A stretch of DNA of 64,000 bases from Bradyrhizobium sp. CCBAU 53338 (GTDB lineage Bacteria; Pseudomonadota; Alphaproteobacteria; Rhizobiales; Xanthobacteraceae): assembly GCF_015291665.1 (NCBI RefSeq), contig NZ_CP030048.1:4154001-4218000 (forward strand). Direction: 5' to 3'. The translations under genes were made by a program, and so were the position numbers. This document shows, piece by piece, positions 41,789-64,000 of the stretch; the stretch's first letter is position 1, and the number at the start of each line of letters is the position of its first letter. Below the pieces are notes generated by a model. It searched no databases. It was not told the DNA's origin and worked only from the letters and a program-made list of their open reading frames with translations.

Positions 41789-42158
41789 GCGGATCATCGA
41801 CAGGCCTCGTGCGGACGGAACTCCCGGCTCTGCCGCGTTTGGAGCCCAGCCCCGTTGAACCGGCTGAGCCCGATGGCGTTGTCCAAAGCACTGCCGGGTG
41901 ACAACCGGACGCAATGGGGATGTCGGACGCGGAGCATTTTTCCGGTTTCTGCCCGCGACATCAACGTATCTGTACGCGCTGACGACTGACCTGTTCCCGG
42001 CAGCTGCACCTTCTTGGTTGCGACGTCGCAAATGACGGCGCCACTGCACGGTATCACTATGATTCCGATGGCGCCGTGCCGATCGGCATGATCTGCATCA
42101 AAGACCTGCAACCAACGCGCGCATATATTGCGAAGCACGTGAGCCTCCTTCGCGGGAC
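41789..42158. other. 370-bp region without a confident gene
   Basis: Open frames exist on both strands but are Arg/Cys-rich, lack ribosome-binding sites and overlap each other. It could be a decayed gene; no protein family can be read from it. Confidence 0.4.
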
Positions 42159-59571: not shown

Positions 59572-59640
59572 CCTGCGGGATGGCCAGCCTGGCGTGCGCA
59601 TACTAGATTGTGGGCTCGTCTTTCGATCTGGAGCTTGCCA

Positions 59641-60219
59641 ATGACATCGCCTGAAGACTTTTCACGGCTGCAATCCGCGATGAGCCGGGCGGTGAAGGCA
59701 CATTGGAAGGCCTTTCTGTTCGAAGGCATTTTGCTCGCCGTCCTCGGCATCGCGGCGCTGATCCTGCCGCCGCTCGCAAGCCTTGCCATCACGATCTTCC
59801 TCGGCTGGATGTTCCTGATCAGCGGCATCGGCGGATTGATCGCAACCTATTGGGCGCGCGCCACACCTGGTTTCTGGTGGTCATTGATCTCGGCAGCCCT
59901 CGCCGTGTTCGCTGGCATGCTGCTACTGGCCCGTCCGATGCAGGCCGTGCTGACGCTGACCATCGTGCTCGGCGCCTATTTCCTCGCCGAAGGCGTCACC
60001 ACCATCATGTACGCGCTGGAGCACCGCCGCGAGCTGAGCGGCCGCTGGTCGTGGCTCCTGATCTCGGGCCTCGTCGATATCGCGATTGCGTTCATGGTGA
60101 TCACGGGACTGCCGAGCACGGCGGAATGGGCCATCGGCGTGCTCGTCGGCATCAACCTTTTGTTCGGCGGTGCCACCCTGATCGGCATGGCCCTGGCGGC
60201 ACGCAAAAGCAACAGTTGA
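59641..60219 (+). CDS. HdeD-family acid-resistance membrane protein
   Basis: This 192-residue protein of six helices has the DUF308/HdeD repeat pattern: 'FEGILLAVLGIAALILPPLA', 'ITIFLGWMFLISGIGGLIAT', and 'GMLLLARPMQAVLTLTIVLG'. It is an inner-membrane protein linked to acid tolerance in E. coli. The start at 59641 was chosen for the normal N-terminus; an in-frame start 33 bp upstream exists. Confidence 0.9.
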   Translation: MTSPEDFSRLQSAMSRAVKAHWKAFLFEGILLAVLGIAALILPPLASLAITIFLGWMFLISGIGGLIATYWARATPGFWWSLISAALAVFAGMLLLARPMQAVLTLTIVLGAYFLAEGVTTIMYALEHRRELSGRWSWLLISGLVDIAIAFMVITGLPSTAEWAIGVLVGINLLFGGATLIGMALAARKSNS

Positions 60220-60251: not shown

Positions 60252-60279
60252 GTGACAAGGCGCCAATGGCGCGCTATAT
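60252..60279 (+). promoter_or_regulatory. Predicted promoter of the aromatic leader/DAHP synthase transcript
   Basis: GTGACA (60252-60257) and CTATAT (60274-60279), 16 bp apart, fit an alphaproteobacterial housekeeping promoter. Transcription would start about 60286-60288, that is at or next to the A of the leader peptide's ATG. Confidence 0.55.
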
Positions 60280-60287
60280 GGCCGTCC

Positions 60288-60368
60288 ATGATCACCGTCG
60301 CCACCAGCTATTTTTGGTACTTTAGCTACGACAGCTTGCTGGCGGCAGGAGGATCGCGCTCAATCTAG
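60288..60368 (+). CDS. Aromatic-rich leader peptide of the DAHP synthase attenuator
   Basis: A 26-residue peptide starts 'MITVATS' and runs straight into 'YFWYFSY', six aromatic residues in seven covering Phe, Tyr and Trp. It ends 25 bp before the terminator stem. Its ATG lies about nine bases after the -10 box, with no room for a Shine-Dalgarno, as in the leaderless rhizobial trpL. Its role would be to stall ribosomes when charged aromatic tRNAs are scarce. Confidence 0.8.
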   Translation: MITVATSYFWYFSYDSLLAAGGSRSI

Positions 60369-60417
60369 AATATTGAAGCAAACGTCCGAACAGCCGCCAG
60401 ACCTGGCGGCTTTTTTA
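60300..60417 (+). promoter_or_regulatory. Transcription attenuator of DAHP synthase
   Basis: Four segments can form exclusive stems. They are 1: GCCACCAGC (60300-60308); 2: GCTGGCGGC (60338-60346); 3: GCCGCCAG (60393-60400); and 4: CTGGCGGC (60403-60410), followed by TTTTTTATT. Pairing 3:4 is a Rho-independent terminator, 2:3 an antiterminator and 1:2 an anti-antiterminator. The aromatic codons (60309-60329) lie between 1 and 2, so a stalled ribosome would mask 1 and free 2 to pair with 3, letting transcription go on. This is the classical trp-type logic. Confidence 0.82.
60393..60417 (+). terminator. Attenuator terminator hairpin
   Basis: GCCGCCA pairs with TGGCGGC around GACC, followed by TTTTTTATT. 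It lies 37 bp ahead of the DAHP synthase start. Confidence 0.88.
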
Positions 60418-60453
60418 TTGGCCGGCAGGTTCTGAAACAAACAGGAGCCCGCC

Positions 60454-61885: not shown

Positions 61886-62980
61886 TCAAGCTTCGGGCGG
61901 ATAGAGATGAACGTCGCCGCAATAGTCCACGATACGATAGCGCGTTTCCGTCACCGCATCACCCGCGTTGGCTGCGGTATTTTGCGCCGCCAACACATAA
62001 TTCGGCCCGACCGGCGACTTGCCGGCGCCGCCGGGGATATCGATCACGTATTCCGGCTGACACAGCCCTGACACCCGCCCTCGCAACTGCCGCATCAAGT
62101 CCTGGCCTTGCGCCAGCGTCGTGCGCAGATGCGCCGTCCCCGGCGCGAGATCGCCGTGATGAAGATAGTACGGCTTGATCCGGCACTCGACGAAGGCCCG
62201 CATCAAATCCGACAGGGCGACGACATTGTCATTGACGCCGCGCAAAAGCACCGACTGGCTCACCATGGGAATGCCGGCGTCGACCAGCCGCGCGCAGGCG
62301 GCGCGGGCCATGTTTGTCAGCTCCCGCGCATGGTTTGCATGAAGTGCAACCCAGGTGGTGGCACCCTCGACTTTCAGCGCAGCGACCATCTCGTCGGTGA
62401 TACGCGCGGGCTCGGCCACGGGCACGCGGGTGTGAAGACGGATGATCTTGACGTGATCGATCGCAGCAAGATCGGCCATGATCTCGCTCATCCGACGCGG
62501 CGACAGCATCAAGGGATCGCCGCCGGTCAAGATCACCTCCCAGATCTCGCTATGGGCGCGGATGTAGTCGATCGCGGCGCGGTAGGCGCTGTCCGACAGC
62601 GCATTCTCCTTGCCGGGACCCACCATCTCGCGGCGGAAGCAGAAGCGACAATAGACCGCGCAGACGTGAACGAGCTTGAACAGGACACGATCGGGATAGC
62701 GGTGCACGATCCCGGGAACCGGCGAATGCGGATTGTCGCCGATCGGATCGGCGCTCTCGCCGGGCTGCGTCTCCAGCTCCGCGGCGGTCGGAACGAACTG
62801 CCGCGCGATGGGGTCGTCGGGATCCGAGGTGTCGATCAGTTCAACCAGCGCCGGCGTGATCGCGACGGCATAACGCGCCGCAACGCGTTCCAGCGCAGGC
62901 AGCGCCGTGGCCGGCGCCAGGTCCGCGGCCACGAGATCGGCCGGCTCGCGCAATGTTCGCAAAGGACTGGTCTTCGTCAT
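61886..62980 (-). CDS. epmB: EF-P beta-lysylation protein, lysine 2,3-aminomutase family
   Basis: This 364-residue radical-SAM enzyme has the [4Fe-4S] motif 'CAVYCRFC' (C107, C111, C114) and a PLP-binding lysine in 'GGAGKSPVGPNYVL'. The length is that of EpmB rather than clostridial KamA. EpmB turns (S)-alpha-lysine into (R)-beta-lysine, which EpmA attaches to a conserved lysine of elongation factor P so that it can rescue ribosomes stalled at polyproline. Its start overlaps the epmA stop (ATGA), so the two are coupled. Confidence 0.94.
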   Translation of the reverse strand: MTKTSPLRTLREPADLVAADLAPATALPALERVAARYAVAITPALVELIDTSDPDDPIARQFVPTAAELETQPGESADPIGDNPHSPVPGIVHRYPDRVLFKLVHVCAVYCRFCFRREMVGPGKENALSDSAYRAAIDYIRAHSEIWEVILTGGDPLMLSPRRMSEIMADLAAIDHVKIIRLHTRVPVAEPARITDEMVAALKVEGATTWVALHANHARELTNMARAACARLVDAGIPMVSQSVLLRGVNDNVVALSDLMRAFVECRIKPYYLHHGDLAPGTAHLRTTLAQGQDLMRQLRGRVSGLCQPEYVIDIPGGAGKSPVGPNYVLAAQNTAANAGDAVTETRYRIVDYCGDVHLYPPEA

Positions 62981-64000
62981 CTCTCATCCGCAGGCGGTGT
63001 CCACACCACCTGATCAATCCGTGTTGCACCGCTTGCCAGCATCACCAGCCGATCAAAGCCGAGCGCGACACCGCTCGCCTCCGGCATCGCGGCGACGGCG
63101 GCCAGAAAGTCGTCATCGAGCGGATAGGCCTCACCGTAACGGCGCTGCTTCTCAACCATGGCCTCCGTGAAACGCTTGCGCTGTTCCGCGGCGTCGGTGA
63201 GCTCGCCAAAGCCGTTGGCGAGTTCGACACCGCAGGCATAGACCTCGAACCGCTCCGCAACCCGTGGGTCGTCCGTCTTCACCCGTGCCAGCGCCGCCTC
63301 TGGAGATGGGTATTCGAACAGAATGGTCAAACGCCCCTGCCCCAGATGCGGCTCGACATGCTCGACCAGGACCTTGCTGAAGATGTCCGACCAGGTGTCG
63401 TCCTCGGCCACGCGAACCCTGCCGGCGGCCGCCTGGGCGAGCGCGGCACGGTTACCCTCGTTGCCAGAGATTGTCGACAGCAGGTCGATCCCGGCGAACC
63501 GCTCAAAGGCGCCGGCAACCGTCAGCAGCTCCGGCTCGGCGAAGGGGTCGGCGGTCCGGCTCCGGAAGGCAAAGGTCCCGATTCCCGTCGCCTGTGCCGC
63601 GCTGGCGATGACGACCACCGTGTCGGCCATGATGGCGTCGTAGGGCGCGCCCGCCCGGTACCATTCCAGCATGGTGAATTCGGGCAGGTGCAGGTCGCCG
63701 CGTTCGCGGTCGCGGAACACCCGGGCGAACTCGAAAATCCGCTCCTCGCCGGCCGCCAGCAGCTTCTTGCAGGCGAATTCAGGCGAAGTCCGCATGTATC
63801 GGCTGGCCCGGCTGCCATCGGGCCGGACGATCTCGGTCCGGGGGGCGTGCAGATGGGTCTCATTGCCCGGGGAGACCTGGAGGATCGAGGTTTCGACCTC
63901 GACGAAGCCCTGCTCGGCGAAAAAGTCCCTGAGAGCCCCGGTGATGGCCCCCCTGGCCTGGAGGAATGGCCGCCGGTCGAGATGCCGCGATGGGCTCCAG
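62977..64000 (-). CDS. epmA: EF-P lysine ligase (GenX/PoxA), 5' end outside the window
   Basis: This is a truncated class II lysyl-tRNA-synthetase paralogue. The frame is open to the window edge and shows motif 1-like 'FFAEQGFVEVETSILQVSPG', motif 2 'EFARVFRDRERGDLHLPEFT' and motif 3 'GVALGFDRLVMLASGA', but no anticodon-binding domain, which is the mark of EpmA. It ligates beta-lysine to EF-P. Only a few N-terminal residues are missing. Internal ATGs (for instance at 63795) are not the start. It is upstream of epmB with a four-base overlap. Confidence 0.93.
   Translation of the reverse strand, partial: WSPSRHLDRRPFLQARGAITGALRDFFAEQGFVEVETSILQVSPGNETHLHAPRTEIVRPDGSRASRYMRTSPEFACKKLLAAGEERIFEFARVFRDRERGDLHLPEFTMLEWYRAGAPYDAIMADTVVVIASAAQATGIGTFAFRSRTADPFAEPELLTVAGAFERFAGIDLLSTISGNEGNRAALAQAAAGRVRVAEDDTWSDIFSKVLVEHVEPHLGQGRLTILFEYPSPEAALARVKTDDPRVAERFEVYACGVELANGFGELTDAAEQRKRFTEAMVEKQRRYGEAYPLDDDFLAAVAAMPEASGVALGFDRLVMLASGATRIDQVVWTPPADER

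Follow-up and report, generated by a model that had tools for sequence, protein, structure and literature searches.

In the trp and pheA attenuators of Escherichia coli, the position of the ribosome selects between a terminator and an antiterminator. In trpL of Sinorhizobium meliloti the leader peptide ORF begins at the 5' end of the RNA, and homologues of its peptide, peTrpL, have been reported in Agrobacterium and Bradyrhizobium (PMC7298713, PMC10117765). Attenuation has also been proposed upstream of DAHP synthase genes, namely aroF of Acholeplasma, which is preceded by the upstream ORF uORFC-13-1 (PMC8632094), and the DAHP-synthase > tyrA operons of two Vibrio species, which appear with putative attenuators in the Merino list in PMC1173090, whose main text names no leader peptide.

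The locus analysed here lies in a stretch of 64,000 nucleotides from Bradyrhizobium sp. CCBAU 53338, referred to as the window, in which a short ORF with a run of aromatic codons and a predicted terminator precede aroG, the gene for a type-I DAHP synthase. Judging from the sequence and a folding model, we put at about 0.9 the probability that this leader controls aroG by transcription attenuation, with ribosome stalling as the means of sensing aromatic aminoacyl-tRNAs. It shares with S. meliloti trpL the presence of control codons, a terminator and an amino acid biosynthesis gene downstream, whereas trpL precedes trpE and its codons are for Trp, and the reported Bradyrhizobium peptide Bja-peTrpL (MSTAVAPARLWWRTS) bears no likeness by eye to the aroG leader peptide. 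An upstream ORF with one or more Phe codons, a terminator and a DAHP synthase gene downstream are common to uORFC-13-1 and the aroG leader. However, the 24 representatives described for uORFC-13-1 all come from Acholeplasma or environmental sequences, and the motif includes a ribosome-binding site and a minimum of one Phe codon (PMC8632094). In a comparison made by description only, the aroG leader differs in its occurrence in three proteobacterial classes, in its runs of Phe and Tyr codons, often joined by Trp codons, and in having no Shine-Dalgarno sequence. With the Vibrio operons the aroG leader has in common that attenuation is proposed before a type-I DAHP synthase gene; the vibrio-type loci in our sample (L073, L078, and L079) had no aromatic leader, and these might represent a different paralogue.

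No aromatic leader before aroG in these bacteria was described in the titles and opening lines of abstracts that searches of a library of open papers listed; because subscription papers and supplements lie outside this scope, priority is not established. The main texts of a study of B. japonicum start sites (PMC4842269), a paper with a figure of 65 families (PMC2965389), and a study of B. japonicum small ORFs (PMC5082802) do not contain, respectively, 'aroG' or 'attenuat'; aroG or DAHP; and 'aroG', 'DAHP', or 'leader'.

Anatomy of the leader and the enzyme encoded downstream

All of the features that an earlier, sequence-only reading had named are present in the window where that reading placed them, including the boxes GTGACA-N16-CTATAT and, after them, an ORF of 26 codons that contains the run YFWYFSY (Table 1). 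The proposed pairing of segment 3 with segment 4 (3:4) does form the predicted terminator stem, but this is one pair shorter at the loop than the 8-mers in that reading imply, because the pair 60400-60403 would leave a two-base loop and is absent from the predicted fold. Segments 1 and 2 are complementary at 8 of their 9 positions, the exception being an A-C mismatch.

TABLE 1 Features of the aroG leader region, in window coordinates
Feature	Position	Strand	Comment
DUF308 membrane-protein gene	59608-60219		Upstream of leader
-35 box GTGACA	60252-60257	+	Position conserved (nGACA) in alphaproteobacterial leaders
-10 box CTATAT	60274-60279	+	16-base spacer to -35 box; 8 bases separate CTATAT from leader ATG
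Leader ORF, 26 codons, MITVATSYFWYFSYDSLLAAGGSRSI	60288-60368	+	Probably leaderless, with ATG at or within ~2 bases of the putative transcription start
Segment 1	60300-60308	+	Able to pair with segment 2; pairing not kept across lineages
Aromatic control codons Y F W Y F S Y	60309-60329	+	Within leader ORF
Segment 2, antiterminator 5' arm, GCTGGCGGC	60338-60346	+	Repeat of segment 4
GGA, antiterminator inner extension	60351-60353	+	Pairs with 60385-60387
TCC	60385-60387	+	Pairing partner of GGA at 60351-60353
Segment 3	60392-60400	+	Terminator 5' arm and antiterminator 3' arm; GCCGCCAG = 60393-60400
Terminator stem	60392-60411	+	Predicted; 8 pairs, loop GACC
Segment 4 (terminator 3' arm) and T6 tract	60403-60416	+	CTGGCGGC = 60403-60410; T6 = 60411-60416
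AGGAG, likely aroG ribosome-binding site	60443-60447	+	Most aroG starts have strong anti-Shine-Dalgarno pairing, leader starts do not
aroG, type-I (AroFGH) DAHP synthase, 361 aa	60454-61539	+	PF00793, TIGR00034, E. coli Phe-regulated AroG chains

The product of aroG belongs to the AroFGH family, with a TIGR00034 score above the cut-off, and can be aligned over most of its length with structures of the Phe-regulated AroG of E. coli. It has GRSAI where those structures have GHSAI, a motif whose serine we take to decide between inhibition by Phe and by Tyr. The description of this protein as "the key aromatic enzyme" was too strong, because the genome also encodes a class II DAHP synthase (L092, G000:C1:4737429-4738742), and no aromatic leader was found in the region upstream of that gene; aroG is thus one of two DAHP synthase genes. 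The two entry enzymes may be under different control.

On the minus strand, at 61886-63795, a gene similar to lysine-2,3-aminomutase (TIGR03822; under the EpmB cut-off) stands beside an EpmA/genX gene (TIGR00462). These are perhaps an EF-P lysylation pair adjoining aroG.

Distribution of the leader across aroG loci

The survey covered 90 loci, comprising the best 80 of at least 591 in a genome collection and 10 from a family sample besides the window's own locus, and an aromatic ORF was called when at least four aromatic residues fell within eight. A short ORF of this kind preceded the type-I DAHP synthase gene at 75 of the 90 loci, and a script found a terminator between the two in 72 of the 75. 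The same search of control windows, which were drawn from these loci and were mostly coding, returned an aromatic ORF in 85 of 2302 and an ORF with a terminator in 8 of 2302. Among the three leaders for which the script found no terminator (L057, L059, and L065), L065 has one by eye, with an 11-base loop, and the ORF of L057, which has a TTG start and no terminator, is probably a chance call.

The leader was found in alpha-, beta-, and gammaproteobacteria, its carriers including Bradyrhizobium, Mesorhizobium, Devosia, Methylosinus, Leisingera, Phenylobacterium, Bordetella, Burkholderia and its relatives, Massilia, Xanthomonas, Dyella, and Rhodanobacter. In the family sample, type-I AroG was encoded in 11 of 119 genomes, and all 11 had the leader. 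The 15 loci without it belonged to two Enterovibrio, Photobacterium, Pantoea, three Methylotenera, Thauera, Azoarcus, Chitinimonas, an Ectothiorhodospiraceae bin, two Ferrovum (one of them, L035, with just 49 bases of upstream sequence), a betaproteobacterial bin, and a bin labelled Melainabacteria. In Vibrionales aroG is reported to be controlled by TyrR, and in Pasteurellales by TrpR (PMC5343134); replacement of the leader by repressors in these orders would fit such control.

A branch of alphaproteobacterial AroG (L050, L058, and L099/L107) has leaders with few aromatic residues, depleted and of an RFY type, in which the terminator is retained; these are possibly weakened attenuators. Two further loci, L030 and L059, come from bins with the labels Melainabacteria and Anaerolineae but encode a type-I AroG close to that of proteobacteria, which may reflect a binning error or transfer.

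Linkage of the leader to aroG

A covariance search across relatives was run with a model (R1) built from 34 leaders (alignment A1, the window and 33 hand-chosen relatives), and the strong matches were all upstream of aroG. Among 289 alphaproteobacterial genomes, scanned with strict filters under which weak matches are lost, R1 scored at least 70 bits in exactly 8, the same 8 that encode AroG, and the next-best match (33 bits) covered the terminator end only. The match adjoins AroG on one contig in seven of the eight; in the other genome (G305) the two are on different contigs, the match at the end of one and AroG 161 bases from the start of the other, after half of the terminator. Matches of about 20 to 33 bits in this class were set aside; among those listed, none was at an AroG, most covered the terminator end only, and some covered the full model. 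Although AroG has a patchy distribution in the class (8 of 289 genomes), the leader was present wherever AroG was seen there, which suggests that the two travel together.

Across 398 genomes of the phylum, R1 had matches at E ≤ 1e-6 in 42 and AroG was detected at E ≤ 1e-60 in 225. All 42 matches were directly upstream of AroG (40 at a listed AroG, plus G626 and G758). R1 undercounts the family, as was apparent when the upstream regions of 17 hand-chosen AroG genes without a match were inspected. In family f181, seven genomes have AroG and no match, and all five examined have an aromatic leader. Upstream of 12 genes from other families there was no convincing leader, and one of them (L188) had a doubtful ORF with four aromatics.

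On a quick tree of 98 of 159 AroG sequences (near copies, repeats of one locus, and short rows omitted; method without mixture; root undefined), the presence of the leader requires four changes, gains and losses counted alike, and 12 of the 15 rows without a leader fall in one branch with 84% support. L099 was scored as leader-positive on this tree even though the script had made no call there.

The terminator sits between the DUF308 gene, which ends at 60219, and aroG, so that the hairpin might be a mere terminator of the upstream gene and the aromatic ORF a product of chance. This reading has next to no probability. Aromatic ORF, segment 2, and terminator recur jointly before aroG in three classes; the strong R1 matches all precede aroG, and such conservation largely refutes this alternative; and the promoter-like boxes lie between the DUF308 gene and the hairpin, at a conserved distance from the leader ATG.

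At the gathering score, no family of Rfam (release 15), whose amino acid leaders were among those compared, matches at the leader in the window or in 15 relatives from three classes. With E values up to 1, a single snoRNA-like match inside aroG was rejected as chance. Elsewhere in the window, at 41889-42001, Rfam matches the Rhizobiales sRNA Atu_At1 with 77 bits.

Conservation of the pairing segments

Conservation in relatives had been set beforehand as a point on which the reading would stand or fall, and the aromatic run, the complementarity of 2:3 and 3:4, and the promoter position were all kept. In the 34-row alignment the terminator (3:4) was paired in 97.7% of cells, versus 19 to 60% in slid controls, and the antiterminator (2:3, including the GGA/TCC extension) in 86.4%, versus 23 to 47%. 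The covariation score of each was reached by none of 500 shuffles. Changes on both sides of a pair were seen in 2 of 9 pairs of 3:4 (matched by 37 of 500 shuffles) and in 4 of 11 pairs of 2:3 (matched by 59 of 500). The number of pair types in 2:3 showed no excess over shuffles in this alignment, and 17 of the 34 leaders have a mismatch at one particular 2:3 pair.

Single-sequence tests were made on 72 of the 75 leaders (L057, L059, and L065 omitted). The signal for 2:3 was weak in alphaproteobacteria (mean z of -1.6 in 29 leaders, P < 0.05 in 9), and the mean z was -2.4 in the 43 others (P < 0.05 in 31). The repeat of segment 4 by segment 2 offers weak support for the antiterminator through covariation, with relatedness still contained in the figures: the summed match length of leaders to their own terminators was 457 (shuffled mean, 432; maximum of 2000 shuffles, 449), and for the 15 non-consensus terminators it was 83 (shuffled mean, 77; maximum, 87).

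The pairing scheme proposed from the window therefore stands for the terminator and antiterminator, both of which are conserved, but the third pairing, 1:2, depends on lineage. In the 34 leaders 1:2 was paired in 57.4% of cells, compared with 58.1% for a partner slid by +3, and its covariation equalled the shuffled mean. Over the 72 leaders the single-sequence signal was moderate and uneven in the three spans tried. It was strongest from the ATG to six bases past the run (mean z of -1.4 in alphaproteobacteria, P < 0.05 in 13 of 29; -0.9 in the others, 12 of 43), with values of -1.1 (9) and -0.7 (2) from the ATG to the run and of -0.8 (2) and -0.6 (7) from 15 bases upstream. Pairing 1:2 may be active in some lineages, such as the Bradyrhizobium, Mesorhizobium, and Burkholderia types, and would not define the family.

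By sequence, the leader has a run of end-product codons, a predicted terminator, an alternative antiterminator that shares the 5' arm of the terminator, and a pathway gene downstream. The 1:2 pause or anti-antiterminator element of the E. coli trp type is possible in the window, unconserved in the 34 leaders, and heterogeneous in the 72. The aroG leader differs from the E. coli trp and pheA attenuators in its unconserved 1:2, its target, the up to three amino acids in its run, and its apparently leaderless or Shine-Dalgarno-free start. A role mainly in translation of aroG, rather than in transcription, is hardly probable in view of the strong predicted terminator with its T tract and the position of the likely aroG ribosome-binding site (60443-60447) outside the pairing segments.

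Promoter position and a probable leaderless start

Of 30 alphaproteobacterial leaders, 28 have the motif nGACA 34 to 37 bases 5' of their ATG (26 unless the starts of L006 and L085 are shifted to the first of two ATGs), and the remaining two have TGACT nearby; of the other ATGs at these loci, 79 of 5851 have the motif so placed. CTATAT ends 7 or 8 bases before the ATG in 14 of these 30 leaders, which are not independent cases because they are related. A simple sigma-70 consensus scan found no promoter at the leader in the window because CTATAT fails the second-position rule of the scan; the conserved position supports the putative promoter instead.

Pairing with the anti-Shine-Dalgarno sequence at ≤ -5 kcal/mol was predicted at few leader starts (5 of 30 in alphaproteobacteria, 0 of 8 in gammaproteobacteria, and 1 of 37 in the others) versus 26 of 30, 5 of 8, and 32 of 37 aroG starts and 22% of random windows. 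The absence of a Shine-Dalgarno sequence and the placement of the -35 box support a putative leaderless start for the leader in the window. Leaderless messages are established in B. japonicum, for which 320 transcription start sites 0 to 10 nt upstream of start codons have been reported (PMC4842269). Eight xanthomonad-type leaders have, by eye, TTATCA or CTATCA 8 or 9 bases before the ATG and are perhaps leaderless too, and many burkholderial leaders have, again by eye, TATAAA or TATAGT about 25 to 40 bases upstream and no Shine-Dalgarno sequence. Leaderless translation and sensing of all three charged tRNAs, both proposed in the sequence-only reading, would fit the sequence.

The apparently leaderless layout resembles that of rnTrpL, a reported dual-function small mRNA, and raises the question of whether, besides attenuation in cis, the terminated leader RNA (~130 nt) or the peptide acts in trans like rnTrpL or peTrpL. 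We consider such an additional role unlikely.

Codon choice and phasing of the aromatic run

Trp is present in the most aromatic-rich eight residues of 29 of 30 alphaproteobacterial and 8 of 8 gammaproteobacterial leaders, but of only 15 of the 37 others. The Phe codons of the leaders are inverted relative to those of the aroG genes that they precede. The TTT:TTC counts were 53:11 in alphaproteobacterial leaders versus 7:157 in aroG, 18:3 versus 5:39 in gammaproteobacteria, and 120:42 versus 56:188 in the others, and in paired comparisons TTT was favored in 29 of 30, 8 of 8, and 34 of 37 leaders, respectively. The 47 long non-overlapping ORFs of the window have 121 TTT and 433 TTC. For Tyr (TAT:TAC) there was no shift in alphaproteobacteria (41:38 in leaders versus 73:83 in aroG), no clear shift in gammaproteobacteria (9:16 versus 6:35; P = 0.07), and a shift in the others (42:40 versus 82:168; P = 0.004); these P values overstate the significance because the rows are related. 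Inverted Phe codon use could reflect slower wobble decoding of UUU or a cause at the level of the RNA.

In order to model phasing, the RNA was ended at segment 3 and folded at equilibrium while a ribosome footprint, assumed to extend 13 bases behind and 16 ahead of the first base of the P-site codon, was masked codon by codon in the same 72 leaders. With stalls within the aromatic run, the modeled probability of the antiterminator had a median of 0.77 and was below 0.3 in only 3 of 72 leaders. For 59 of the 72 leaders, the drop below half of the maximum came 0 to +2 codons from the last aromatic codon; for the other 13 it came at -7 to -1 or +3 codons. When no ribosome was present the median was 0.72, and 28 of 72 leaders were below 0.3. 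A ribosome at the last modeled position (the stop codon in 71 of 72) left the antiterminator below 0.3 in only 36 of 72. In the model these last two results depart from the textbook trp scheme. An untranslated leader may read through, given the median of 0.72, and termination would then require segment 2 to be occupied by the ribosome at the moment when the polymerase synthesizes the terminator, a question of timing that lies beyond an equilibrium model.

The start codon and aromatic residues are conserved, as would also be the case if the ORF encoded a small protein that acts as a protein rather than through stalling, and a trans role has been described for the Sinorhizobium trp leader peptide peTrpL (PMC7298713). 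This explanation is very improbable for the aroG leader. In Devosia-type leaders (L010-L012), L091, and L020, the frame is shifted after the run, so that the tail of the peptide differs, whereas segment 2 is kept and the aromatic codons remain in frame with the start, as control by stalling predicts. In addition, the run is phased to segment 2 in the model, and the family is tied to aroG.

Proposed mechanism and implications

The analysis shows the anatomy, its conservation, the linkage to aroG, and, in the folding model, a run that is phased to segment 2; we infer the start site, translation, stalling, termination, and amino acid response of the attenuator as follows. Transcription would start at or next to the leader ATG, and a ribosome would load on the 5' end without a Shine-Dalgarno sequence and trail RNA polymerase. 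When Phe, Tyr, or Trp is scarce, the ribosome would stall at 60309-60329, leaving segment 2 free to pair with segment 3, so that the terminator would be blocked and aroG transcribed. When all three are abundant, the ribosome would advance until its front edge lay over segment 2; with segment 2 covered, segment 3 would pair with segment 4, and transcription would stop at the T tract.

A broader proposal, which we hold only tentatively and regard as doubtful in its entirety, is that the leaders form an ancient family of pan-aromatic attenuators, locked to one gene, which control entry into the shikimate pathway in bacteria where repressors of the enteric type have no such role. The family would be leaderless in alphaproteobacteria and apparently in xanthomonads, would have no conserved 1:2, so that an untranslated leader would often read through, and would have its sensitivity to each amino acid tuned by codons (for Phe, UUU in the leaders versus UUC in the genes); the short terminated RNA, or the peptide, may in addition act in trans.

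An attenuator of this kind would add a control for an aromatic entry enzyme in rhizobia, xanthomonads, and burkholderiales, none having been found described in our searches of open papers. A single leader would read up to three amino acids at once, and it would provide a natural test of leaderless translation coupled with transcription. The inverted Phe codons pose the question of whether attenuators pick synonymous codons for decoding speed.
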